Shown here one piece after another: positions 21,333-47,310 of a DNA stretch of 64,000 nucleotides; position 1 is the first letter of the stretch; each line of letters opens with the position of its first letter. The stretch covers positions 1-64,000 of the forward strand of contig VRUI01000008.1 in assembly GCA_019456225.1 (NCBI GenBank), given 5' to 3'. The DNA comes from Planctomycetota bacterium. GTDB taxonomy: Bacteria; Planctomycetota; Phycisphaerae; Sedimentisphaerales; Anaerohalosphaeraceae. Below the pieces are notes generated by a model that had not been told where the DNA came from, searched no databases, and worked only from the letters and a program-made list of their open reading frames with translations. The position numbers and the translations under genes were made by a program.

Positions 21333-22493
21333 ATGAAGAAATTTTCGAAAGCCCTACTCATTATCGGTTTAGCATCCATTTTTGTCACCGCTGCCGGATG
21401 CCAGGAAAAAGAACAGGTTAACACACCAGATAATAACGGTTTCACGGCCGATCCGCCTGTGGCATCTAATGATACAGCTGCCCCAAAGGTTAGCCCTAAC
21501 ACGCCCCGGATCATCAAGATCTCCGGCGAAGTGAAACCAGATCAGGGCGAGAAATCTTCGATTAAATTCGAAAAACTTTCTCACGATTTCGGTCTTATGG
21601 GGCCCAAGGCTTCTTCCAGTTTCGAGTTTAAATTTAAAAACACCGGTAAAGGAACCCTGATATTTACCCGACAGCCTCTGTCCACTTGCGGATGCACAGT
21701 TGCAATATTGAAAAAAATGAAGTATGCGCCAGGTGAGTCGGGGTCTGTCAAGTTAACTTTTACCTCCAATAGTAACCCTGCTAAAGTCATGAAGCATATT
21801 ACCGTATTCACTAACGACCCAAAAAATCCGCGTGTGAGTCTTGGCATAAAGGCGGAAGTGCAGATCCCAATTAAAACAACCCCCAATCCACTAAATCTTA
21901 AACTGAATAAAGACAACGCCGGGGCCGTTCCTATCACTATCACTACCACCGACGGAAAACCGTTTGCTATCAAAAGCTTTAGTTCGACAAGCTCAGTTAT
22001 TAGTGCCGATTTCGACAAGACCAAAAAAGCGATCAAACATACGATCAATCCGAAAGTGGATCTAACAAAACTAAGAAAGACGCTCAACGGAAATATCGCC
22101 ATCAATATTGATCACCCAGTCATAAAACAGGTTCTCCTTTTTTTCACAGCGCCTCCTATAGTCAGACTTTCGAGCTCACGGATCACCTTGCTCGACCTTA
22201 TCCCCGGTAAACCCATAACGAGGGAGATAATGGTATTAAGCAACTACGGTGAAAAAATTGAGATCGAGTCTATCATATCGGCAAAGAAGTGTATGAAGGT
22301 GATCGACCAGAAGGAAATGGGCAACAGCGTTAAACTAGTTGTAGAAGTTACTCCTCACAAAAAGACAAAACACGGTAACTACTTCTACGACCACATGACG
22401 ATCAATATCAAGGGCGGCGAAAAGCTTACCCTTATCTCTTCGGGATTTTACAAAGCAACAAAGCCGAAAAAGACGGTTAAGATTTCTAATTAA
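21333..22493 (+). CDS. DUF1573-domain lipoprotein
   Basis: 386 residues. The N-terminus is a lipoprotein signal with lipobox TAAGC (C23), so the protein is membrane-anchored. AAGGAAA precedes ATG. Residues 75-170 match DUF1573 (an ASH/MSP-like immunoglobulin fold): FEKLSHDFGLMGP, FEFKFKNTGKGTL, then LSTCGCTVAILKK with the paired cysteines typical of this family, and LTFTSNSNPAKVMKHITVFTNDPKNP. A second, weaker Ig-like domain covers about 260-380. The function of DUF1573 is not established. The next gene, a haem lipoprotein, lies 46 bp downstream, so the two are probably expressed together. Confidence 0.85.
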   Translation: MKKFSKALLIIGLASIFVTAAGCQEKEQVNTPDNNGFTADPPVASNDTAAPKVSPNTPRIIKISGEVKPDQGEKSSIKFEKLSHDFGLMGPKASSSFEFKFKNTGKGTLIFTRQPLSTCGCTVAILKKMKYAPGESGSVKLTFTSNSNPAKVMKHITVFTNDPKNPRVSLGIKAEVQIPIKTTPNPLNLKLNKDNAGAVPITITTTDGKPFAIKSFSSTSSVISADFDKTKKAIKHTINPKVDLTKLRKTLNGNIAINIDHPVIKQVLLFFTAPPIVRLSSSRITLLDLIPGKPITREIMVLSNYGEKIEIESIISAKKCMKVIDQKEMGNSVKLVVEVTPHKKTKHGNYFYDHMTINIKGGEKLTLISSGFYKATKPKKTVKISN

Positions 22494-22539
22494 TCTCCTC
22501 GGCTATATTAGCCAGAAATAATGATCAAGGAGGATTTTT

Positions 22540-23898
22540 ATGCGGTTTTTGACATGTATTATTATTGGTTTGGTATGTTTTACGGGATGTGTCCCCGAAG
22601 AGGATGTTGATAAGACATCTCAGAATACGACGATCGACTCCACACAGACACCGGCGAATACAGAAGGCAATACCATAACGGTTTTTCTTTCGGGCAATAC
22701 TCTCAGTCAGCTTAAGCCATGCGGCTGCGCGGCGGAACAACTTGGAGGGTTCAGCAGGCGACAGGTCATATTTGATAAAGCAGACGCCAAAACCAGGCTT
22801 CTCGTCGACACGGGAAACTTCCTTATACACAAAACACTACAGGACATGGTAAAGCTCAATACGATAATTTCCTCTTTGATAACGCTGGGTTACGATGTCG
22901 TTAACTTCGACGAAAATGATCTTTCGGCTGTGAGCAATGGATACTCTATCAAGGAGATGCCGTTTAAGGTTATTGGGCCGGCTAAAGAGTTGAAAAGTGT
23001 TTTCAGGCGGAATATCTCGACGGCAGCTGTTACGGTGGCATCTGTAAGCAGCCAGACAATTGAAGACGGAAGCTTAGATCGAGGCGGTCTCGAAAAACTG
23101 TTCTCCAATGACACCGTTTCGGCAGCGGATTTAACAGTTGTGAACATACTGATAATAGATGACTTCAATGAAAGCATAGCCAATTTCCTGGCCGGTTCAG
23201 CCGTTGTCGATGTTGCCGTATGCCAATACCCAACCGACTATCCCAGTATTATTAAGACCGATCACAAAAAGCCTCTTTTTGTTTCCGTCGGCAAATTGGG
23301 TAAGTATGTCGGCAAGCTCGACCTGATATTATCGGACAAAAAGGGCCTTGAGCTTTCATACTCAAAGGTCGCCGTAGACAAAAAACTTCGGCCATCAGAG
23401 CAGCTGGATGAAATATACGAAGTCTATCGGCAAATGGTACAGGCCGAGGAGCTGCTTGGCAAGGTCATAAGGACCCCCCTTCCGGATGGGCATAAATACG
23501 CAGGTTCCGATAAATGTAAGGATTGTCACGAATATGAACACAAAATGTGGTCGAAGATGCCTCATGGGCATGCTTACCAGACGCTCGTCGAGTCCGGCGA
23601 CGCTTACGACCCGGAATGCATTGAATGCCATGTTGTAGGCCTGAAATACGAATCCGGCTTTGAAAACGAAAACAGCCCAAAAGGGCTCAGGAATGTTGGC
23701 TGCGAAGTATGTCACGGCCCGCGAGCAAAACATATCAAAAATGCGATGGATAATACTGAAAACCAAAAAAAATCCGAACCAATCGCAGCATTTAAGTGTA
23801 TATCCTGCCATACACCGGAGCATAGCCCGGGTTTTCAGGCTGATGAAGCGGGATATCGCAAAAAAAATCTTCACAATAAGGAACAAAAGGCAAAGTAA
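22540..23898 (+). CDS. tetrahaem cytochrome c lipoprotein with N-terminal metallophosphoesterase-like domain
   Basis: 452 residues, excellent ribosome site (AAGGAGG). Lipobox FTGC with C17. Residues 40-300 resemble the 5'-nucleotidase-type fold (VFLSGNTLSQLKPCGC, LGGFSRRQVIFDK, LLVDTGNFL, LGYDVVNFDEND), but the metal-binding histidines and aspartates of true phosphoesterases are largely absent; the PCGC pair replaces the usual start. Residues about 320-440 carry four CxxCH haem motifs (CKDCH, CIECH, CEVCH, CISCH) in a cytochrome c554-like arrangement, with further histidines as possible axial ligands. It would sit on the periplasmic side of a membrane, passing electrons; the partner is unknown. 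Cytochrome c maturation genes are not in the window. Confidence 0.85.
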   Translation: MRFLTCIIIGLVCFTGCVPEEDVDKTSQNTTIDSTQTPANTEGNTITVFLSGNTLSQLKPCGCAAEQLGGFSRRQVIFDKADAKTRLLVDTGNFLIHKTLQDMVKLNTIISSLITLGYDVVNFDENDLSAVSNGYSIKEMPFKVIGPAKELKSVFRRNISTAAVTVASVSSQTIEDGSLDRGGLEKLFSNDTVSAADLTVVNILIIDDFNESIANFLAGSAVVDVAVCQYPTDYPSIIKTDHKKPLFVSVGKLGKYVGKLDLILSDKKGLELSYSKVAVDKKLRPSEQLDEIYEVYRQMVQAEELLGKVIRTPLPDGHKYAGSDKCKDCHEYEHKMWSKMPHGHAYQTLVESGDAYDPECIECHVVGLKYESGFENENSPKGLRNVGCEVCHGPRAKHIKNAMDNTENQKKSEPIAAFKCISCHTPEHSPGFQADEAGYRKKNLHNKEQKAK

Positions 23899-29246: not shown

Positions 29247-30950
29247 ATGAAAAGTTTACTTATACAAACGGCTAAGCGGAGCGGCATTGTTGATGCTGTC
29301 ATGCTTGAGAATTTTTTCGACAACGCCAACGGTAACCGTCGGCGTATCGATGATGTTCTGCTTTCAGCGCCCGATTTTACCGAGGAGATGGTTCTTAAAC
29401 TCTTTGCAGAGGCATTGGGGCTGGATTTTCTTTCAGAGATTTCTCCCGATGACGTTCCGGCCGAGTTTATCGAGTCGGTCCCTGCCAATTATGCGCAGAA
29501 CCACTACCTTATCGGCTTAAAGAAAAACGAAGACGATGCCGAGATAACCGTCGCGATGAGCAAACCGCTGGACACCAGCACGCTCGACAACATCTCGAAA
29601 ATGACGAAGTTGCCCGTAAAGAGTGCCCTGGCAACGAGAGCGGCGATCACGGCGGCGATCGATGTCGCATACGAGCAGAAAAACACGGTCATAGAAGAAG
29701 TCGCCGAAGAGCTTGACAACCAGAATCTTGACCAGCTTGTCGACGAGGTGCATTCCTCCGACGACCTGCTGGACGTAGTAAACCGGCCGCCGGTTATCCG
29801 TCTGGTAAACGACATACTCTTCCGCGCTTTGCAGCTGCGTACGAGTGATATCCACATTCACCCGTACGAGTCAAAAATCCAGATTCGCTACCGCATCGAC
29901 GGCATTCTATACGATACCCTAAGCCTCAACCGTAACGTATTGCCGCTGATCATCTCGCGTATCAAGGTCATGGCCGGTATGGACATCGCCGAAAGGCGTA
30001 TGCCCCAGGACGGCCGTACCAGCGTGCGCATCGGCCAGCGTGAGATCGACCTGCGTGTAAGTACCGTTCCGACCAGCTACGGCGAAAGAAGCGTGCTGAG
30101 GATACTCGACAAGAGCACCGGCATTTTGAGCCTTGAACAGCTCGGTCTGTGTAAAGAGGACCAGAAAAGCTTCGACAGGATGATCAACTGCTCGCATGGC
30201 GTGATATTCGTAACGGGACCTACAGGCAGTGGTAAAAGTACCACGCTTTACGCCTGCCTTAACCGGATCGACTCGACCCAGAAAAATGTCATGACTATCG
30301 AGGACCCCATCGAGTATCAGCTCGACGCCATCAGCCAGATGCAGGTCGCCGCTAAAAAGGGTATGACGTTTATCAACGCCCTGCGTCACGTACTGCGTCA
30401 GGATCCGGACGTTATCATGGTCGGTGAGGTTCGTGACGAAGAGACGGCCAGGATGGCTATTCAGTCGTCGCTTACCGGTCACCTTGTATTCAGTACTCTG
30501 CATACGAACGATGCTTCGGGGGCAATAAGCAGGCTGCTTGATTTTGACGTCGAGCCCTATCTTGTAAGCTCCTCGCTGATCGGATGTCTCGCCCAGAGGC
30601 TTGTCAGGCGGATTTGCCCGGACTGCAAACAGCCATACCACCCTTCGGCGCATGAGCTTCGTGAGCTTGGAATCGGCGACGTTGACAAAAGCATAAAATT
30701 CTTTGTCGGTTCCGGATGCAGCAAGTGTTTCGATACGGGGTACCGCGGAAGAACGGGTATCTACGAGCTTATGACCATGACCGAACGAATTCGTGAAATG
30801 GTCTATAATAAGGAAAGTGCCGGTGCCATCAAACGCGCCGCTATCGACGAAGGACTGAAAACCCTGCGAATGGACGGGGCACAAAAAGTGCTCCAGGGCA
30901 TAACAACAATAGCCGAAGTCCTCCGAGTAACCCAGTCAGACGTAATGTAA
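29247..30950 (+). CDS. gspE: GspE secretion ATPase of T2SS 1
   Basis: 567 residues. An N-terminal GspE/PilB N1E-type domain (1-150) is followed by the hexameric ATPase core: Walker A GPTGSGKSTT, the Asp box TIEDPIEYQLD, Walker B DPDVIMVGEVRDEETA, and His box STLHTNDASGA. A zinc knuckle (CPDC...CSKC) lies near residue 455-495, as in GspE proteins. Powers pseudopilus assembly from the cytoplasm. It starts 33 bp after gspD; no clear ribosome site. Confidence 0.96.
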   Translation: MKSLLIQTAKRSGIVDAVMLENFFDNANGNRRRIDDVLLSAPDFTEEMVLKLFAEALGLDFLSEISPDDVPAEFIESVPANYAQNHYLIGLKKNEDDAEITVAMSKPLDTSTLDNISKMTKLPVKSALATRAAITAAIDVAYEQKNTVIEEVAEELDNQNLDQLVDEVHSSDDLLDVVNRPPVIRLVNDILFRALQLRTSDIHIHPYESKIQIRYRIDGILYDTLSLNRNVLPLIISRIKVMAGMDIAERRMPQDGRTSVRIGQREIDLRVSTVPTSYGERSVLRILDKSTGILSLEQLGLCKEDQKSFDRMINCSHGVIFVTGPTGSGKSTTLYACLNRIDSTQKNVMTIEDPIEYQLDAISQMQVAAKKGMTFINALRHVLRQDPDVIMVGEVRDEETARMAIQSSLTGHLVFSTLHTNDASGAISRLLDFDVEPYLVSSSLIGCLAQRLVRRICPDCKQPYHPSAHELRELGIGDVDKSIKFFVGSGCSKCFDTGYRGRTGIYELMTMTERIREMVYNKESAGAIKRAAIDEGLKTLRMDGAQKVLQGITTIAEVLRVTQSDVM

Positions 30951-31001: not shown

Positions 31002-32216
31002 ATGCCAAGATTTTCTTACAAGGCTATCGATCACAAACATAAGTCGGTCAAGGGAACCGTCACCGCTGAAAGTGCGTTCGCTGCTCGCAAGCATCTGCGG
31101 GCCAAAGGCGTCCACCCCACCTCGATACACGAGATTACCAGTGCATTAGAGGCCAGGTCTTTCGGCGGAATGTTCAAACGCAAGGGCAAGGCACACGTTA
31201 CCGAATTCACCAAGCAGCTCTCAACAATGCTGCGGGCCGGGATCAAACTGACCGAATCGCTGAATGTGCTCGTCCCGCAGTTAACCAACGCGGACTTTAA
31301 GAACGCAATAACTGATATCCGCGACCGGGTTATAACCGGCGAATCTTTTGCAGATACGCTCAGCGAGTACGACAATTACTTCGACACGATCTATATCAGC
31401 ATGGTACGCGTCGGTGAGGTTACCGGCACTCTCGAAAAAAGCCTTACCAGTATCGCAGATTTCATGGACAAGCGCCACAAACTCGAATCAAAGATGAAAT
31501 CGGCAATGATATATCCGGTTATTTTGTTTACGGCGTCTACTATCGCGGTACTTTTCCTTACTGTATTTATAATTCCTGTTGTCGCCGAACAGATCGAAAA
31601 AGCCGGCCAGGAGCTTCCATGGGTAACCAAGGCGATTCTCTGGATAAGCGCCACTCTCAGAAGCTGGTGGGGACTCGTCGTCGCGATTACTATCTTTGCT
31701 TTTGTATGGGCGACAAAACGCTTTGTCGCAACGCCGCGAGGAGCGCATGTCAAGGACAAATTCCTGCTCGCCCTGCCGGTATTCGGCGCCCTCGTCAAGC
31801 AGCGCATCGTCGCAAGGTTTGCCTCGACGCTTTCAACTTTACTGGAATCCGGACTTTCAATGGCAGATTCGCTCAAGATCGTCGCGGAGGTCACAGGCAA
31901 CAGCGTAATGAATAAAGCCGTTAAAAAAGCACGCGAACGGATACTCTCAGGCTCAGACATAGCAACCCCCCTGCGTGACAGCGGAGTTATCGACCCGACG
32001 CTTGCCCACATGGTGACCGTCGGCGAAAAGAGCGGCGAACTGGAAAAAATGCTAAAAGACATAAGCGACAACCTGGAATCGTCGTCAGACCTGGTGATCG
32101 AAAGGATAAGCGCAGCGATAGAACCGCTGATTATCCTTTTCATGTCGATAGTGATCGGTATAATAGCGTATGCGATGCTTGTTCCGATTATCAGATTTTC
32201 GGCTGGCTCCATTTAG
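31002..32216 (+). CDS. gspF: GspF inner-membrane platform protein of T2SS 1
   Basis: 404 residues, the family size. Two T2SSF repeats: the first around EFTKQLSTMLRAGIKLTESLNVL (about 68-190), the second around RFASTLSTLLESGLSMADSLKIV (about 270-395). Three membrane helices, near 170-195, 215-240 and 375-400. It anchors the ATPase and pseudopilins. The 51-bp gap before it holds copies of the GCTAATTGC microrepeat also found at 49800-49836. Confidence 0.95.
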   Translation: MPRFSYKAIDHKHKSVKGTVTAESAFAARKHLRAKGVHPTSIHEITSALEARSFGGMFKRKGKAHVTEFTKQLSTMLRAGIKLTESLNVLVPQLTNADFKNAITDIRDRVITGESFADTLSEYDNYFDTIYISMVRVGEVTGTLEKSLTSIADFMDKRHKLESKMKSAMIYPVILFTASTIAVLFLTVFIIPVVAEQIEKAGQELPWVTKAILWISATLRSWWGLVVAITIFAFVWATKRFVATPRGAHVKDKFLLALPVFGALVKQRIVARFASTLSTLLESGLSMADSLKIVAEVTGNSVMNKAVKKARERILSGSDIATPLRDSGVIDPTLAHMVTVGEKSGELEKMLKDISDNLESSSDLVIERISAAIEPLIILFMSIVIGIIAYAMLVPIIRFSAGSI

Positions 32217-32337: not shown

Positions 32338-32778
32338 ATGCAAAAACGAAATCATAACAACAGAAAAGCTTTCACTATGATCGAAATTATCGCCGTTCTC
32401 GTCATCGTCGGTCTCCTGGCCGGTGTCGCGACTACGAGCTTTATGAGCAGGATAGAAAAAGCTAAAGTCATCACCACCAAGACCAGCCTGGGCCAACTCA
32501 GCACCGCAGTCGGTCAGTTCTATCTGGATGTAGGAAGACATCCGGACGAGGACGAAGGGCTTGAGGCGATCGTCATGGAACCGGCAGATGCTGAAGGATG
32601 GGCACCTGGTGGATATCTTGAATCCGATGAAGTACCGACGGATGGCTGGGGAAACGATTTCGTGTATCTGAGCCCGGCGGAAAACGATAGACCTTTCGTG
32701 ATCATAAGCTATGGCGCTGACGGCGAAGAAGGAGGCGAAGGTAATGATACCGACCTCAAGAGTACAGATGCCAACTAA
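32338..32778 (+). CDS. gspG: GspG major pseudopilin of T2SS 1
   Basis: 146 residues with AAAGGAAAAAG before ATG. The prepilin site is KA/FTMIE: cleavage after A11 instead of the usual glycine, with Glu5 of the mature protein at E16. The hydrophobic helix IIAVLVIVGLLAGVATTSF is followed by the GspG features VGRHPDEDEGLEAI and DGWGNDFVYLSP. The C-terminal acidic loop (about 128-146) is where GspG binds calcium. It builds the shaft of the pseudopilus in the periplasm. Confidence 0.95.
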   Translation: MQKRNHNNRKAFTMIEIIAVLVIVGLLAGVATTSFMSRIEKAKVITTKTSLGQLSTAVGQFYLDVGRHPDEDEGLEAIVMEPADAEGWAPGGYLESDEVPTDGWGNDFVYLSPAENDRPFVIISYGADGEEGGEGNDTDLKSTDAN

Positions 32779-42431: not shown

Positions 42432-42460
42432 GCACAATACCTCCGGCTACGGTTGGGACT
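42432..42460. repeat. inverted partner of the repeat at 54806-54832
   Basis: The reverse complement reads GTCCCAACCGTAG.CGGAGGT.TTG and includes the last codons and stop of gspD 2. A similar sequence in opposite orientation lies at 54806-54832, on the far side of the T2SS 2 operon. Confidence 0.5.
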
Positions 42461-44744
42461 TCATCATATTGACAATCTTCAATAGTTGCTTTTCTATTGC
42501 ACTCATATCTACAGGCTCAGCACTTTTTTTGGACTCATTAACCTTTTTAGGCTCATAAACTTTTTTGGGCTTATTAACTTTTTTAGGCTTATAAACTTTT
42601 TTAGGTTCATAAACTTTTTTGGGCTCATTAATCGGTTCTTTTTGGGATGGAGTCATAGTTTTTACGTAAGTTCGAGCCGGTTTATCGACATGTTTTTTTA
42701 CGGACTGCAGGACTGATTCAAGATTTTCAATGTGCAATCTTAGATTTTTATTCTGGTCGAGATTTTGCAGAATATTACTTTTTTTCCGCTCATTTTCAGA
42801 AATTTCCAGCAACTCGGCTTCATTGCTGGCGACTATGGGAGTAAGGAATATAAGAAGTTCTGTTTTCTGCTGAGACCTGACTGTCTTTCTGAACAATCCT
42901 CCCAGAATGGGTAGATCACCCAGGAAAGGCACCTTTTCGACAGATTCCGTTTCCTGATCCTGCATCAGCCCGCCAATAACTATTGTCTGACCATTTTTGA
43001 CCGCGACCCTGCTCTCGGAAGAACGCTTGGCGAATACAGCTGCATTAACAGTTTCTGAGATGGGGACAGTTTTGGCGGTTGTCGTCGAAATTTCCGGGAT
43101 TATGTCCATGATCACGAGTCCCTGCGGATTGATATACGGCGTAACTTCGAGAATAATTCCAATATCTTCGTATTCAATCGTGTTGATCGTCTGGCCGGTT
43201 TCGGTTGTACGAGTATCTCTAATAAAGGGAACCTCTTCGCCAACGGTAATCCTGGCCGTCTGGTTATTACTCGTTAAGATGTACGGCCTTGACAGCACGT
43301 TGAGCTTGCCGACAGTCTCAAGAGCATGGAGAGTGACGCTCAGATCGCCTTCGAGTATTTTCGTCACGAAACCGGTGCCTGTGGCATCTGGCACAAACTC
43401 AGTTCCGATTAGCGTTTCGCCTCCGCTGTCACGCATGTTCAAAACGGAAAACTCCATTCCAAGGTCGAGACCGCTGTTTAGAGTAACTTCGGCAAGAAGC
43501 ACCTTGATCAGCACCTGCGGAACAGGTTTATCAAGTTCGTCTATGATCGCCTTAATCTTTTTATAGTTTTTCGAGGAGGTCATAATAAGTAAGGCATTGG
43601 TATCCTCATCGGATTCGAAATAGACTTCGTCAGAGAGATCGCCTGAACTGGATGAATTGCTGCTTGACCGTCTGCCCTGCGAAGAGCCCCCGCCTCTCGA
43701 TGAGCCGGCATTATTTTGATTGATCTGTTCCATCTCCTGGAAAAGATTATTGAGCACCTCTTTAAGGTTATCGGATCTCGCGTTTTTGAGGAAATATATA
43801 AATATCGTTCTTTCCTCGTCCGGGTTCGAGTCCAACTCGATAATGACCTTTTCAACAACATCAAGTATGTCGCTTGGGCCGCTTACAACAACAGTACTCG
43901 TTCGTTCATCGGCTGCTGCGACAACACTGATATCCGGACCGACACCGCTTTGACTGTCCCGTCCGCGGTCTCCGCCGCGATCTGAGCCCCTACCGCCTCT
44001 CCCCATGAAACTTGCCATCCGGGAAAAAGGGTTTCGCGATTCATTACCACCTGATGTCTGCCGCCTGTTGGTGTCGAATACTTCATTGATAAGATCAGCG
44101 GTGTTTTCCGCATCGGCATAGACCAGTCGAAATACCCTGACTTCCGAAATAGCGGACATCTGAGTATCAAGTGCATTAATAATCTCCAGCAGACGTTTGA
44201 TGTTTGCGGTCGTATCGGTAATGATCAGGCTGTTACTGCCCTGGTTGGTTGACAATTCGGCGTATTCGGGGACAAGCGGAAGCAGGCCCTCCCGCAGCTT
44301 TACCACATCGATATAACGTACAGGCACAATATGAGTAACCAGGTCGTCGCCCGGAATAATCTTGCTGGGATCACTGCCGGTTTGTACGGGTATGCTCATC
44401 TGTTTTGCCGCCTCCAATTCAACAACTTTCAATGTCTGCCCCATGCGAATAGCTGCCAATCCCTTCACCTTAATGATCGAATTGATCAGCGAGATTGCAC
44501 GGTCGACACCGATCGGCTGCTGGCTGATGACGGTTATGCGTCCTTCGATAGAGATATCCGAGATGATAACCATACCTACAACCTTGGAAAGATATTCAAG
44601 CACATCCATTATCGGCGCATCTTTGAAATTCATCAAAATCTGCTGATCTTTTTTACGTCCAGGATCTTCGGCAAAAGCCGGCACAAATCCTGACAAGAAG
44701 AACATTACCGTAATTATTACGATTACAAAACGTTTCATTTCCAT
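42447..44744 (-). CDS. gspD: GspD secretin of T2SS 2
   Basis: 765 residues, closer to normal size. Signal peptide (FVIVIITVMFFLSGFVPAFA), then N0 (LMNFKDAPIMDVLEYLSKVVGMVII), N1-N3 domains (IVPVRYIDVVKLREGLLPLVPEYA; VRVFRLVYADAENTADLINEVF; FIYFLKNARSDNLKEVLNNLF) and the secretin domain (VLIKVLLAEVTLNSGLDLGMEF, VLSRPYILTSNNQTARITVGEEVPF, AVKNGQTIVIGGLMQDQ, VPFLGDLPILGGLF). The C-terminal 150 residues beyond the barrel hold a hexapeptide repeat (42522-42632) and a final helix. It is the last gene of the operon, whereas gspD is second in T2SS 1. Confidence 0.95.
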   Translation of the reverse strand: MEMKRFVIVIITVMFFLSGFVPAFAEDPGRKKDQQILMNFKDAPIMDVLEYLSKVVGMVIISDISIEGRITVISQQPIGVDRAISLINSIIKVKGLAAIRMGQTLKVVELEAAKQMSIPVQTGSDPSKIIPGDDLVTHIVPVRYIDVVKLREGLLPLVPEYAELSTNQGSNSLIITDTTANIKRLLEIINALDTQMSAISEVRVFRLVYADAENTADLINEVFDTNRRQTSGGNESRNPFSRMASFMGRGGRGSDRGGDRGRDSQSGVGPDISVVAAADERTSTVVVSGPSDILDVVEKVIIELDSNPDEERTIFIYFLKNARSDNLKEVLNNLFQEMEQINQNNAGSSRGGGSSQGRRSSSNSSSSGDLSDEVYFESDEDTNALLIMTSSKNYKKIKAIIDELDKPVPQVLIKVLLAEVTLNSGLDLGMEFSVLNMRDSGGETLIGTEFVPDATGTGFVTKILEGDLSVTLHALETVGKLNVLSRPYILTSNNQTARITVGEEVPFIRDTRTTETGQTINTIEYEDIGIILEVTPYINPQGLVIMDIIPEISTTTAKTVPISETVNAAVFAKRSSESRVAVKNGQTIVIGGLMQDQETESVEKVPFLGDLPILGGLFRKTVRSQQKTELLIFLTPIVASNEAELLEISENERKKSNILQNLDQNKNLRLHIENLESVLQSVKKHVDKPARTYVKTMTPSQKEPINEPKKVYEPKKVYKPKKVNKPKKVYEPKKVNESKKSAEPVDMSAIEKQLLKIVNMMKSQP
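42522..42632 (-). repeat. 18-bp tandem repeat encoding PKKVYE/K hexapeptides
   Basis: About six units of an 18-bp period within the 3' end of gspD 2 encode EPKKVY, EPKKVY, KPKKVN, KPKKVY, EPKKVN and ESKK. The array is rich in Lys and Pro and should be an extended linker after the secretin barrel. Confidence 0.85.
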
Positions 44745-44817
44745 GAGTTTTTTCCTTTTTCGATCAAAAGTTTTGGCCTGATATAATCAAAAGGCCAATT
44801 CCTTATTGTTTACTTTA

Positions 44818-45378
44818 TTAGTCAAGCTCTTTTTTTCTTCTTTCCAGCATTTTCCTGAGTATTTCGCTTTCGTCGGTGCCTTGAATTGCCGGTGAGTTTG
44901 GGTCGGAAGAACCGAGCGATCTGGATGTCGTGGTATAAGCCGCGGCACCGGGCACGACACCTGACATATCCATCCCAACCATTATTTCAACTTTGGTCTG
45001 GTTCTTATCGAATACTACCCGGTCGGCTTTTATTTCTTTGATTACCATTCCGTCAACCTGCTCTCCAATGGATGCCAGGAATAATTCCCCACTGGACTGG
45101 TTTTCAATAAAGGCAAGCTTCTTGTTACTGTCGATCGCCACCCCCCTGAGGATAAAAACAAATGCTATATCAGGGGCGGCAACGGTATTAGGTTCTGCAG
45201 GACGAACGTCAACACGCACAGGCCTGCGGGGCGATCTATCCTTTGAAAAGATATTTCGCTGAATAATAACGCCATAGCTTTCCTTTGACTTCTCGTCTTG
45301 TCCAGTTTGCTCGCCATGACCGGCAAGAGCCATCAGCAGCATCAAAACAACAATCACATATTTACCCGGTTTATTCAT
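44818..45378 (-). CDS. gspC: GspC-like component of T2SS 2
   Basis: 186 residues. A short membrane segment (YVIVVLMLLMALAG) is followed by YGVIIQRNIFSKDRSPR, the typical rNiFs-type segment before the GspC homology domain. The HR domain covers about 70-140 (IAFVFILRGVAIDSNKKLAFIENQSSGELFLASIGEQVDGMVIKEI). No PDZ domain. It starts 8 bp inside the end of the gspM gene and lies before gspD, as expected for partners that bind one another in the periplasm. Confidence 0.85.
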   Translation of the reverse strand: MNKPGKYVIVVLMLLMALAGHGEQTGQDEKSKESYGVIIQRNIFSKDRSPRRPVRVDVRPAEPNTVAAPDIAFVFILRGVAIDSNKKLAFIENQSSGELFLASIGEQVDGMVIKEIKADRVVFDKNQTKVEIMVGMDMSGVVPGAAAYTTTSRSLGSSDPNSPAIQGTDESEILRKMLERRKKELD

Positions 45379-45931
45379 TATTCACCATCTCATTCTTCTG
45401 GTCATAAACGTATATCGATGAAACTCTCATCTGAATCGTCATCTGCGAGCCGCTCTCGTCGGAGGCGCCCATCTGCATAGTCTTGATCTTCAGCGGTATT
45501 GGAGCATTTTCAATATCCCACAGAAACATTGTCACAGATTTCATATTACCTTTACCCGAGACAAGAAACTCAATTTCTCTAACGCTGCCGTCAGTATCGC
45601 GTTCAATACGCTCAGGCTGCATCGAAGCGAGAGTAAGGTAATTCTTATAAGAAACATCTTCAAGGTACCGCAGCACAATACCTTCGGTAACGGCCGGATC
45701 GTTCGACAAACCGGAATCTGTCATCTTCCGCCACCTTTCAGAAAGCAGTTTTCGCCGCTTCATAACTGACAATCCTTTTTCGACGTCAGCGGCAAGCTTG
45801 TCTTTGTGATCCTTTACCTCGCTGCGTTTTGCCATCAATGGAGATAGTATGTACTTGTCCGAGATCAGCAACGCTATAGCAAAGGCTGCAAGGATAAGTA
45901 TGATCTTTTCTCTACGGCTTAAACCTGTCAT
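45371..45931 (-). CDS. gspM: GspM/PilO-like protein of T2SS 2
   Basis: 186 residues. One helix after a basic start (SRREKIILILAAFAIALLISDKYIL), a coiled segment (about 35-70) and a C-terminal ferredoxin-like domain (VREIEFLVSGKGNMKSVTMFLWDIENAPIPLKIKTMQMG), the PilO/GspM pattern. Four-base overlap with the gspL gene upstream. Confidence 0.82.
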   Translation of the reverse strand: MTGLSRREKIILILAAFAIALLISDKYILSPLMAKRSEVKDHKDKLAADVEKGLSVMKRRKLLSERWRKMTDSGLSNDPAVTEGIVLRYLEDVSYKNYLTLASMQPERIERDTDGSVREIEFLVSGKGNMKSVTMFLWDIENAPIPLKIKTMQMGASDESGSQMTIQMRVSSIYVYDQKNEMVNNE

Positions 45932-47310
45932 CGCTGCGGCCCTCCATACTGGTAATTTATCGCGAACGATATTGTCTTGGTGTTTTTCGCGGTCTGCCGG
46001 ATATACAGCAACTTGACATTAGTGAAAGACTTGCTTTTTTCAAGCTTATCGAGCACGTCCAGGGCAGCGGTTTCTTCAACTGCTTTTCCTGTAATAACCT
46101 GGTTTAGAGACTCATCGACAGCGAGGCTGCTTATCCAAACATCACCCTTTTCAGGAAACAGCAGGGTCAGTTCACGAAGTGAGTCAATGTATTTAGTCTT
46201 ACCGTCAAACCATCGCCTGGCGAAAGTAACGCGTTCTAGTACCTCCTCTGACGATGCAACATTTTCACTCATTTCCTCGAGCCGGGCGGTAAGCTGCTTA
46301 ACGTCCCTGGCGTCCATATACCACTCAAAGCCCAGGTATCCGATTATCGCGATAACAAGAACGCAAGCTGCCGCAACTCGTGGAATTATCCTTTTAAGAT
46401 TGCTTTCCTTTTTGCCGTTGAGATGACTGCCAAGAAAATCTATCGGGCATTTGGCTCCTGACATCCTCTGCCACGCAAGGCGGCCTGCCAGGCTGCAGTA
46501 ATCACCGGTTTCGGCAATGTCGCCGGGCTGGGAGCAATCGACAATTTCAATATTTTCATGCTGTCCGACAGCTTTGGCTACCCTGCCGTCATTATCGTCA
46601 CCGACAACAAACGCCCTCAATCTGCCCTCACCGCTAATCTGTGACGAACCAATTCTTTGCATTTCAACAGCGAGCCTGGCGGATATGTCTTTTTGCCCGC
46701 CCGCTGTAGACCGAAGCGGCAAATACTGAATCGACTTGATCTGACCGTCGCCATACACAATGATCTCTGCCGAATTTCCCCAGAGATACACACCGCAGTA
46801 AATACCGGCCGTATCATCCGGCAGGCACACAAGCGAACGCAAAGTCATCGACAATGGCGTAATATTGACCGCCTCCAGAAACGATCTCACGGAATTTACA
46901 TATTCTTTTAAAACAGAAACGACAAAAATCTTATTTGCATCGCCGTTAAGCGTACCGGAATAATCTATAAGTACGTCATCGGGCGAAAGCATCGATTTCT
47001 TTTCAAGACCAAGTTTGAGGATTCCCGGCAAAACAGATTTATCCTTCAAGGGCGGAATATCCATTTCGCAGCCGAGTACGTGCTTTGCCGAGATGCCCAC
47101 TACAGCTTTTGCGCTCTTAAAACCGTTTGCCTTAAGGAACTGCCTGAAGGCTTCGATCTGGCCCGGGAGTTGTTTCGGACCGGCTCCATCCGGCATATCG
47201 AAATGGCAGGATTTGACGCTTCGAAAACCTTTTCCTGCCCGTTCAACCTGAGATACGGCAATGCCGGTATCGGTAAACAAAACACCAGGAATATTTTTCC
47301 TTTTACCCAT
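45928..47310 (-). CDS. gspL: GspL-like (PilM-PilN type) protein of T2SS 2
   Basis: 460 residues. The actin-like cytoplasmic part covers 1-300 (GVLFTDTGIAVSQVERAG, AKAVVGISAKHVLGCEMDIPPL); one helix lies at about 318-336 (VAAACVLVIAIIGYLGFEW); the periplasmic part has a coiled coil (VKQLTARLEEMSENVASSEEVLERV) and a PilN-like fold. It starts 1 bp before the end of gspK and overlaps gspM by 4 bp. Same architecture as the T2SS 1 protein but little visible sequence identity. Confidence 0.85.
   Translation of the reverse strand: MGKRKNIPGVLFTDTGIAVSQVERAGKGFRSVKSCHFDMPDGAGPKQLPGQIEAFRQFLKANGFKSAKAVVGISAKHVLGCEMDIPPLKDKSVLPGILKLGLEKKSMLSPDDVLIDYSGTLNGDANKIFVVSVLKEYVNSVRSFLEAVNITPLSMTLRSLVCLPDDTAGIYCGVYLWGNSAEIIVYGDGQIKSIQYLPLRSTAGGQKDISARLAVEMQRIGSSQISGEGRLRAFVVGDDNDGRVAKAVGQHENIEIVDCSQPGDIAETGDYCSLAGRLAWQRMSGAKCPIDFLGSHLNGKKESNLKRIIPRVAAACVLVIAIIGYLGFEWYMDARDVKQLTARLEEMSENVASSEEVLERVTFARRWFDGKTKYIDSLRELTLLFPEKGDVWISSLAVDESLNQVITGKAVEETAALDVLDKLEKSKSFTNVKLLYIRQTAKNTKTISFAINYQYGGPQR

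Follow-up and report, generated by a model that had tools for sequence, protein, structure and literature searches.

A DUF1573 lipoprotein and a tetrahaem 5'-nucleotidase-like lipoprotein as a candidate thiol-redox pair beside type II secretion genes in Planctomycetota

Introduction

Two protein families close to the genes described here have been tabulated as selenoproteins. DUF1573 proteins with a UGC motif and UshA-like proteins with CxU appear in the tables of PMC9312934 and PMC13188914, and OS_HP2 (pfam07610) with UxC appears in that of PMC2398784; the tables themselves attach no function to either family. A third family, MauE, is speculated in PMC7794033 to form disulfides in methylamine dehydrogenase. 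Here, we describe two adjacent genes, P1 and P2, which are related to the first two families and lie in front of type II secretion system (T2SS) genes. They are located in a 64,000-nucleotide stretch of DNA (the window; contig VRUI01000008.1, assembly GCA_019456225.1) from a Planctomycetota bacterium of the order Sedimentisphaerales.

UshA_like_PCGU (NF041198) resembles P2 in its 5'-nucleotidase-like domain, its PCG[C/U] motif and its haem domain, whereas P2 is a Cys form that scores 173.2 bits against a cut-off of 275. OS_HP2 (NF041425) shares with P1 a DUF1573 domain and the position of the [C/U]GC within it. P1 differs from it in its score (49.6 bits, cut-off 100), its Cys form, two extra immunoglobulin (Ig)-like domains and the T2SS context. 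Because neither protein passes the cut-off, we call P1 and P2 relatives, not members, of these families. The thiosulfohydrolase SoxB and the 5'-nucleotidase UshA share the fold of P2 (Z about 21–22), but P2 has lost the metal ligands, gained PCGC and added a haem domain. That domain resembles Nitrosomonas cytochrome c554, with four CxxCH sites, whereas the solved c554 protein has no thiol domain. MauE (PF07291) is like P2 in another way: it is found next to P1 in four genomes, replaces P2 across the genome set and has a CGC motif. Unlike P2, it is a membrane protein by family; it gives no match to the P2 profile, and the Pfam scan of P2 finds no MauE match.

We propose that P1 and P2 work together outside the cytoplasm as a thiol-redox couple serving the adjacent T2SS, and that MauE does the same job in most relatives without P2. 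We regard this proposal as evenly balanced between right and wrong.

Results

Cys-Gly-Cys motifs in an Ig-fold lipoprotein and a degenerate 5'-nucleotidase

The initial annotation, made from the letters alone, described P1 as a DUF1573 lipoprotein and P2 as a tetrahaem lipoprotein with a degenerate phosphoesterase-like domain, both with conserved CGC cysteines. Our analysis bears out this description. P1 matches DUF1573 (PF07610) with 77 bits (gathering threshold 26.1), begins with a lipobox-like segment (...TAAGC) and carries TCGC at residues 118–121. P2 also has a lipobox-like start (...FTGC), with PCGC at residues 60–63 and four CxxCH. From the lipobox pattern, both proteins are predicted to be lipid-anchored; with fragments counted, 28 of 36 P1 rows and 25 of 39 P2 rows have the lipobox Cys.

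The AlphaFold2 model of P1 (pLDDT 87) contains Ig-like domains at approximately residues 77–176, 180–273 and 277–373, with borders taken from the strand list, and the CGC lies in a loop. The first Ig domain aligns by VIA with 2qsv (Z 14.3), the Ig domain of VesB (Z 11.6) and VesC (Z 10.9). C119 is identical in 26/26 rows (alignment A4). Some P1 relatives (among L071, L058, L063, L054, L069 and L077) have a vicinal CCG instead of CGC. Meanwhile, a C-terminal Cys at position 369 occurs in 33/36 P1 rows and is Ser in the window's P1, and several genomes of the order hold a tandem P1 duplication (L049, L053, L056, L074, L085, L296, L315). A table line on DUF1573 in the Bacteroides iron response (PMC10434189) gave no help with the function of P1.

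The claim that P2 joins a 5'-nucleotidase-like fold to a c554-type haem domain also holds. The Cytochrome_C554 domain (PF13435) scores 52.2 bits (cut-off 20.8), and the N-terminal domain has no Pfam match. The AlphaFold2 model built from 35 sequences (pLDDT 84) adopts the 5'-nucleotidase fold, and its top Foldseek match is a 5'-nucleotidase (E 3.6e-15). With VIA-align, the model superimposes on 3ivd with Z 22.2 and a root-mean-square deviation of 3.3 over 253 aligned residues; SoxB 2wdc gives Z 21.7, a tie with 5'-nucleotidase, and 4uwq, in which SoxB is disulfide-linked to SoxYZ, gives Z 21.4. The P2 profile matches UshA at E 2.2e-13, SoxB at E 2.2e-10 and cytochrome c554 at E 2.7e-20.

We take the two-metal ligands of UshA to be D41, H43, D84, N116, H252 and Q254, with H217 as a further one. 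In the hhalign alignment with E. coli UshA, the first six correspond to N53, L55, N93, E125, Q229 and P231 of P2, so that 0/6 are kept, and H217 is unaligned. On this sequence comparison, 'degenerate' is the right word: P2 appears to have a 5'-nucleotidase or metallophosphoesterase fold without the two-metal site. The PCGC motif starts five residues past the position matching H43, after the first strand, as in UshA_like_PCGU. It is identical in 35/35 P2 rows (alignment A3); L052, a member of the order outside A3, has ACGC.

Beyond the four CxxCH, only three His of P2 are invariant (H342, H398, H445), presumably the number in Nitrosomonas cytochrome c554. With these as distal ligands, three haems would be bis-His and the fourth open, which we take to be the c554 pattern.

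P1 and P2 adjoin in many genomes, and T2SS linkage is local

P1 has a match in 136 of the 148 genomes of the window's order and P2 in 84. We count 82 genomes as P2-positive, having dropped G030 and G107, where the match is weak and covers the haem part alone. Across the phylum, a P2-like match at E <= 1e-25 is found in 196 of 392 genomes.

The initial annotation named an absence of co-occurrence in other genomes as the result that would speak against the pair. The neighbourhood data give the opposite result, for the genes adjoin in many Planctomycetota and some Armatimonadota. P1 lies directly upstream of P2 in 44/53 order loci, or 41/44 distinct loci away from contig edges, a count that drops the duplicate records L078, L079, L080, L083 and L084 and four contig-edge loci. 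Directly 3' of P2, a gspC-like gene follows in 46/53 order loci (41/48 distinct), and GspD stands at most four genes downstream in the same proportions, compared with 0/58 outside the order set. Outside the order set, P1 precedes P2 directly in 24/57 non-edge loci. The background is low: 2 of 1127 other open reading frames (ORFs) across all P2 loci are P1-like.

The first-set regions are 39 loci of 38 genomes chosen among the 84 matches, plus the window genome's own P2 paralogue; L057 and L068, where the script read no P2 ORF, are excluded from locus counts. The order set includes L078–L092 and the outside set begins at L093, a split by match rank and not by taxonomy. The outside loci come from other Planctomycetota (Scalindua and Pirellulales among them), Armatimonadota, Verrucomicrobiota and others, and include the own paralogue, L038. 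The P2 tree agrees with the split except for L095, which groups with order family f5; without it the outside count is 23/56. By coordinates alone, P1 lies within 2.5 kb upstream of P2 in at least 62 of the 82 P2-positive genomes, GspD lies within 9 kb in at least 56, and both hold in at least 45. These figures are lower than the script-read ones, in part because of contig ends.

In the tree of 116 P2 sequences, P1-paired forms occur in more than one clade, and T2SS-linked forms fall inside one. The selenocysteine (Sec) forms, and the clade holding the forms found beside DUF4159 genes, have no P1 alongside. The T2SS linkage of the pair is real but local, being seen only in the window's order. 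P1 also stands directly before the gspC-like gene in 19/39 regions from P2-less genomes, and GspD lies within 9 kb of P1 in 22 of the 49 genomes with P1 and without P2, among the matches listed. P1 stays ahead of the T2SS genes without P2, and therefore the pair is not obligate. In Pirellulales-type loci (L114, L116, L124, L128–L130, L136), the pair follows large genes of about 800–900 aa; the one in L136, the sole one tested, encodes an O-antigen-ligase (Wzy_C) protein.

Relatives carry selenocysteine at both motifs

Sec-containing relatives come from the phylum to which G148 belongs; this genome is a Candidatus Tharpella (NCBI phylum Candidatus Tharpellota). We take this large sampled group (n=247 genomes) to be Desulfobacterota in the GTDB sense. 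The UshA-like family occurs in 113/247 of its genomes at E <= 1e-30, with 51 above the cut-off, and many of the listed matches have a single in-frame TGA. Twenty loci were hand-picked from the matches and read by script, two of them from one genome (G622). In 19/20 the TGA falls at PCGU, in register with the second Cys of the P2 motif (C63); the remaining locus has no UGA. OS_HP2 occurs in 84/247 genomes at E <= 1e-15, with 23 above the cut-off. The 20 OS_HP2 loci read gave 21 segments with the P1 motif, and 17 of these have UGC there, with the Sec in register with C119.

P1 and P2 of the window are not selenoproteins, as both motifs have Cys codons. The window's genome (95.8% complete) gives nine SelB matches, none above the cut-off (best 187.4 against 242.25 bits), in a search that did not extend to tRNA-Sec and SelA. 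Cys forms are expected in a genome with no SelB match above the cut-off.

A pairing of Sec form with Sec form was looked for without success. Whereas P2 stands beside DUF1573 and T2SS genes, 0/20 of the P2-type regions in the Sec phylum have a P1 or GspD match, and no P2 lies near the 20 OS_HP2 loci, whose flanks span only about 1.5 kb. We also notice that the Sec forms L239 and L152 of the UshA-like family keep NDVH, which is DxH-like, just ahead of PCGU; this may be a relic of the phosphoesterase metal site.

Long MauE proteins and P2 tend to exclude each other

In G027, G031 and G082, a MauE protein of 302–319 aa (PF07291 32–34 bits, cut-off 27) is encoded where P2 would lie, after P1 and before the gspC-like gene, and in G135 a 320 aa protein of the same type directly follows P1. 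These four genomes represent two genera. In three MauE sequences inspected, no CxxCH haem sites were seen except CETCHE (L287) and CEDCHE (L315), which we read as thioredoxin-type CxxC. CGCF and CxxC occur together in each of the 20 MauE proteins that we retrieved from genomes lacking P2.

MauE is found in 69/148 genomes of the order. We define long MauE as a frame of at least 220 aa, a limit chosen after the list was seen. On this definition, it occurs in 8/82 P2-positive and 51/66 P2-negative genomes, leaving 74 with P2 only and 15 with neither. Among 66 high-quality genomes (at least 90% complete, at most 5% contaminated), 31 have P2 only, 33 long MauE only, one both (G049) and one neither (G022, where P1 is also absent). 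Counted by genus, 45 of 83 have P2 only, 27 long MauE only, 7 both and 4 neither. Fisher values for the exclusion range from 2e-11 to 1e-17. Because these values ignore kinship, a GspD tree was built. Its 53 rows imply 10 changes in P2 presence, of which supported branches force at least 7; the 'MauE' label on this tree means no P2, and G081 carries it without a MauE match.

P1 keeps its motif in P2-less genomes, with C119 in 40/41 rows and C121 in 41/41, which rules out that loss of the P1 CGC follows loss of P2.

A second P2 copy in the same genome

The window's genome encodes a P2 paralogue at C108:13607-14989 (L038:9108-10511, minus strand). This second UshA-like tetrahaem protein scores 261.7 bits with NF041198, just below the cut-off of 275, and matches TIGR04486 SoxB at 7.8e-12, far under the cut-off. 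Its gene sits between a DUF4159 gene and, after it, a gene for a thioredoxin-like protein, which supports a thiol role for P2. A DUF4159 neighbour is also seen in P2-type loci of Blastopirellula and Verrucomicrobiota.

Layout of the locus

The ORFs of P1 and P2 were both recovered at their expected coordinates (Table 1). They are separated by 46 bp, and AAGGAGG precedes P2. As the initial annotation had it, the pair lies directly upstream of T2SS genes. The gspC-like protein has no Pfam family above the cut-off and no NCBIfam match; GspE-like, GspF-like and GspG-like are names that we assume for the genes after GspD. As a candidate redox target in the gspC-like protein, an ATC-type Cys occurs in about one quarter of 34 rows, mostly of the window's own family. 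No operon boundary could be drawn among P1, P2 and the gspC-like gene, as promoter- and terminator-like sites are no commoner than in shuffled sequence. At 42447-47310 on the minus strand, facing the T2SS operon, the ORFs include a second secretin-like gene with small neighbours, apparently another T2SS or pilus-type system.

Table 1. Features of the P1–P2 locus, in window coordinates
Feature	Position	Strand	Basis
P1: DUF1573 lipoprotein (lipid anchor predicted), 386 aa, three predicted Ig-like domains	21333..22493	+	PF07610, NF041425, AlphaFold2 model
TCGC motif of P1 (T118-C121); C119 matches Sec in OS_HP2-type selenoproteins	21684..21695	+	
P2: tetrahaem lipoprotein (lipid anchor predicted), 452 aa; N-terminal 5'-nucleotidase fold, apparently without metal site, and c554-type domain	22540..23898	+	
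PCGC motif of P2 (P60-C63); C63 matches Sec in UshA-like selenoproteins	22717..22728	+	
P2 haem site 1, CKDCH	23515..23529	+	invariant CxxCH
P2 H342, candidate distal haem ligand	23563..23565	+	invariant His outside CxxCH
P2 haem site 2, CIECH	23617..23631	+	invariant CxxCH
P2 haem site 3, CEVCH	23701..23715	+	invariant CxxCH
P2 H398, candidate distal haem ligand	23731..23733	+	invariant His outside CxxCH
P2 haem site 4, CISCH	23797..23811	+	invariant CxxCH
P2 H445, candidate distal haem ligand	23872..23874	+	invariant His outside CxxCH
gspC-like gene, 299 aa	24026..24925	+	named from position and form
GspD secretin, 1397 aa	25020..29213	+	TIGR02517 305.9 bits, short of its cut-off of 351.35; Secretin PF00263 passes its own with 118 bits
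GspE-like ATPase	29247..30950	+	sequence and conserved gene order
GspF-like	31002..32216	+	sequence and conserved gene order
GspG-like pseudopilin	32338..32778	+	sequence and conserved gene order

Discussion

The suggestion in the initial annotation of a thiol-redox module gains support from Sec at both CGC motifs in relatives, the adjacency of the genes and the exclusion between P2 and long MauE. The thiol chemistry of P1 and P2 is well supported. Direct electron exchange between them, its direction, the clients, the membrane location and the role in the T2SS are what we infer. In the proposed mechanism, P2 would retain the 5'-nucleotidase fold with the metal site gone, and the PCGC just past the old active-site strand would act as a new redox centre. 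The fused tetrahaem domain would carry electrons between the PCGC and the respiratory chain, in one direction or the other. P2 would exchange electrons with the Cys-Gly-Cys of P1, the Ig-fold lipoprotein of nearly the whole order, and P1 would then act either on the T2SS or on its clients. T2SS substrates are suggested as clients because of the gene order. In most relatives that lack P2, its role as the thiol-redox partner of P1 may fall to a MauE protein that has a thioredoxin-type CxxC. By analogy with MauE, for which a part in disulfide formation has been speculated, we favour net oxidation: the haems would draw electrons from thiols, leading to disulfides in proteins that fold before T2SS export.

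Several observations weigh against this couple. P2 has further, P1-free roles: P1 is missing from the surroundings of the 20 Sec-phylum loci, and it does not immediately precede P2 where DUF4159 genes are neighbours. P1 keeps its CGC without P2, and therefore P2 is not the sole partner of P1; where P2 is present, C121 of P1 is absent in 4/22 rows. The exclusion is incomplete as well. Eight P2-positive genomes also hold long MauE, and when any MauE is counted, short ones too, it is weaker (18/82 P2-positive against 51/66 P2-negative genomes), with MauE in 7/32 high-quality P2-positive genomes. Two genomes, G090 and G098, have long MauE and no P1 match. Replacement in place is shown in four genomes only, because 19/20 of the fetched MauE regions have no P1 near. 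The end of the MauE protein that holds the CxxC resembles thioredoxin weakly: of the three proteins scanned, two match Pfam Thioredoxin below the cut-off and one gives no match. Lost cytochrome c maturation was rejected as the cause of P2 loss, as PF01578 is found in 52/64 genomes without a P2 match against 77/84 with one. Because L284 and L290 stand away from their families in the GspD tree, it falls short of a clean species phylogeny, and its number of changes may be too high. The genomes are partly metagenome-assembled and not independent, the P1 matches in Armatimonadota are weak (31–52 bits), and the literature searched contained no biochemistry on the pair.

Other explanations use much of the same evidence. 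Shewanella multihaem lipoproteins are exported by the T2SS, as are VesB and VesC, whose Ig domains are similar to the first one of P1. The pair may be a cell-surface module for electron transfer, a possibility that the initial annotation raised, or for metal or metalloid reduction, itself exported by the T2SS. The tetrahaem lipoprotein adjoins the T2SS, this linkage is conserved in the order, and some metal-handling families are also listed in the selenoprotein tables cited above. However, a membrane protein with thiol motifs takes the place of P2, and loci outside the order set contain the pair without GspD nearby, so we hold surface export to be unlikely. The retention of P1 directly before the gspC-like gene, or within 9 kb of GspD, in P2-less genomes would also suit a T2SS accessory lipoprotein, such as a scaffold or a pilotin-like protein. 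Its CGC would then form a structural disulfide, and P2 would merely share the operon. Sec at the P1 motif in relatives argues instead for a reactive site. Adjacency of P1 and P2 without a T2SS, and the exclusion of P2 with long MauE, also speak against an accessory role, which we consider quite unlikely.

SoxB among the top structural and profile matches of P2, together with the SoxB match of the paralogue, raises the idea of sulfur chemistry. P2 would be a SoxB-like enzyme and P1, an Ig fold with CGC in a loop, a SoxYZ-like thiol carrier; the Cys pairs would shuttle sulfane sulfur or persulfide, with the electrons going to the tetrahaem domain. Yet the SoxB scores tie with those of ordinary 5'-nucleotidases, and the metal ligands are lost. 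MauE replacing P2 fits disulfide chemistry better, and we find the sulfur enzyme very unlikely. SoxY and SoxZ are absent from the best 50 VIA rows listed for P1, a listing that excludes nothing.

For the thiol-redox couple that we prefer, a broader claim can be framed. P2 might found a class of haem-driven thiol-disulfide enzymes derived from a dead 5'-nucleotidase, in which the role of DsbB, VKOR or MauE is wired to c-type haems and DUF1573 proteins are the dithiol (or selenol-thiol) partners. We put this forward tentatively and think it more apt to be wrong than right. P1 and P2 are variants of known (seleno)protein families, and the functional link between them is new. Our literature search, whose scope left out most subscription papers, returned no paper joining the UshA-like and DUF1573 families or tying either to the T2SS.

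Cys forms of the UshA-like (PCGU) and DUF1573/OS_HP2 families stand side by side, and within one order P2 is repeatedly swapped with MauE; this makes a testable redox system. If the broader claim is true, it would provide functions for two orphan selenoprotein families and describe a secretion system that has a redox partner of its own, one that can be interchanged. Our findings suggest that the T2SS of these Planctomycetota has a thiol-redox input, which either haems or a membrane protein of the MauE type may run.

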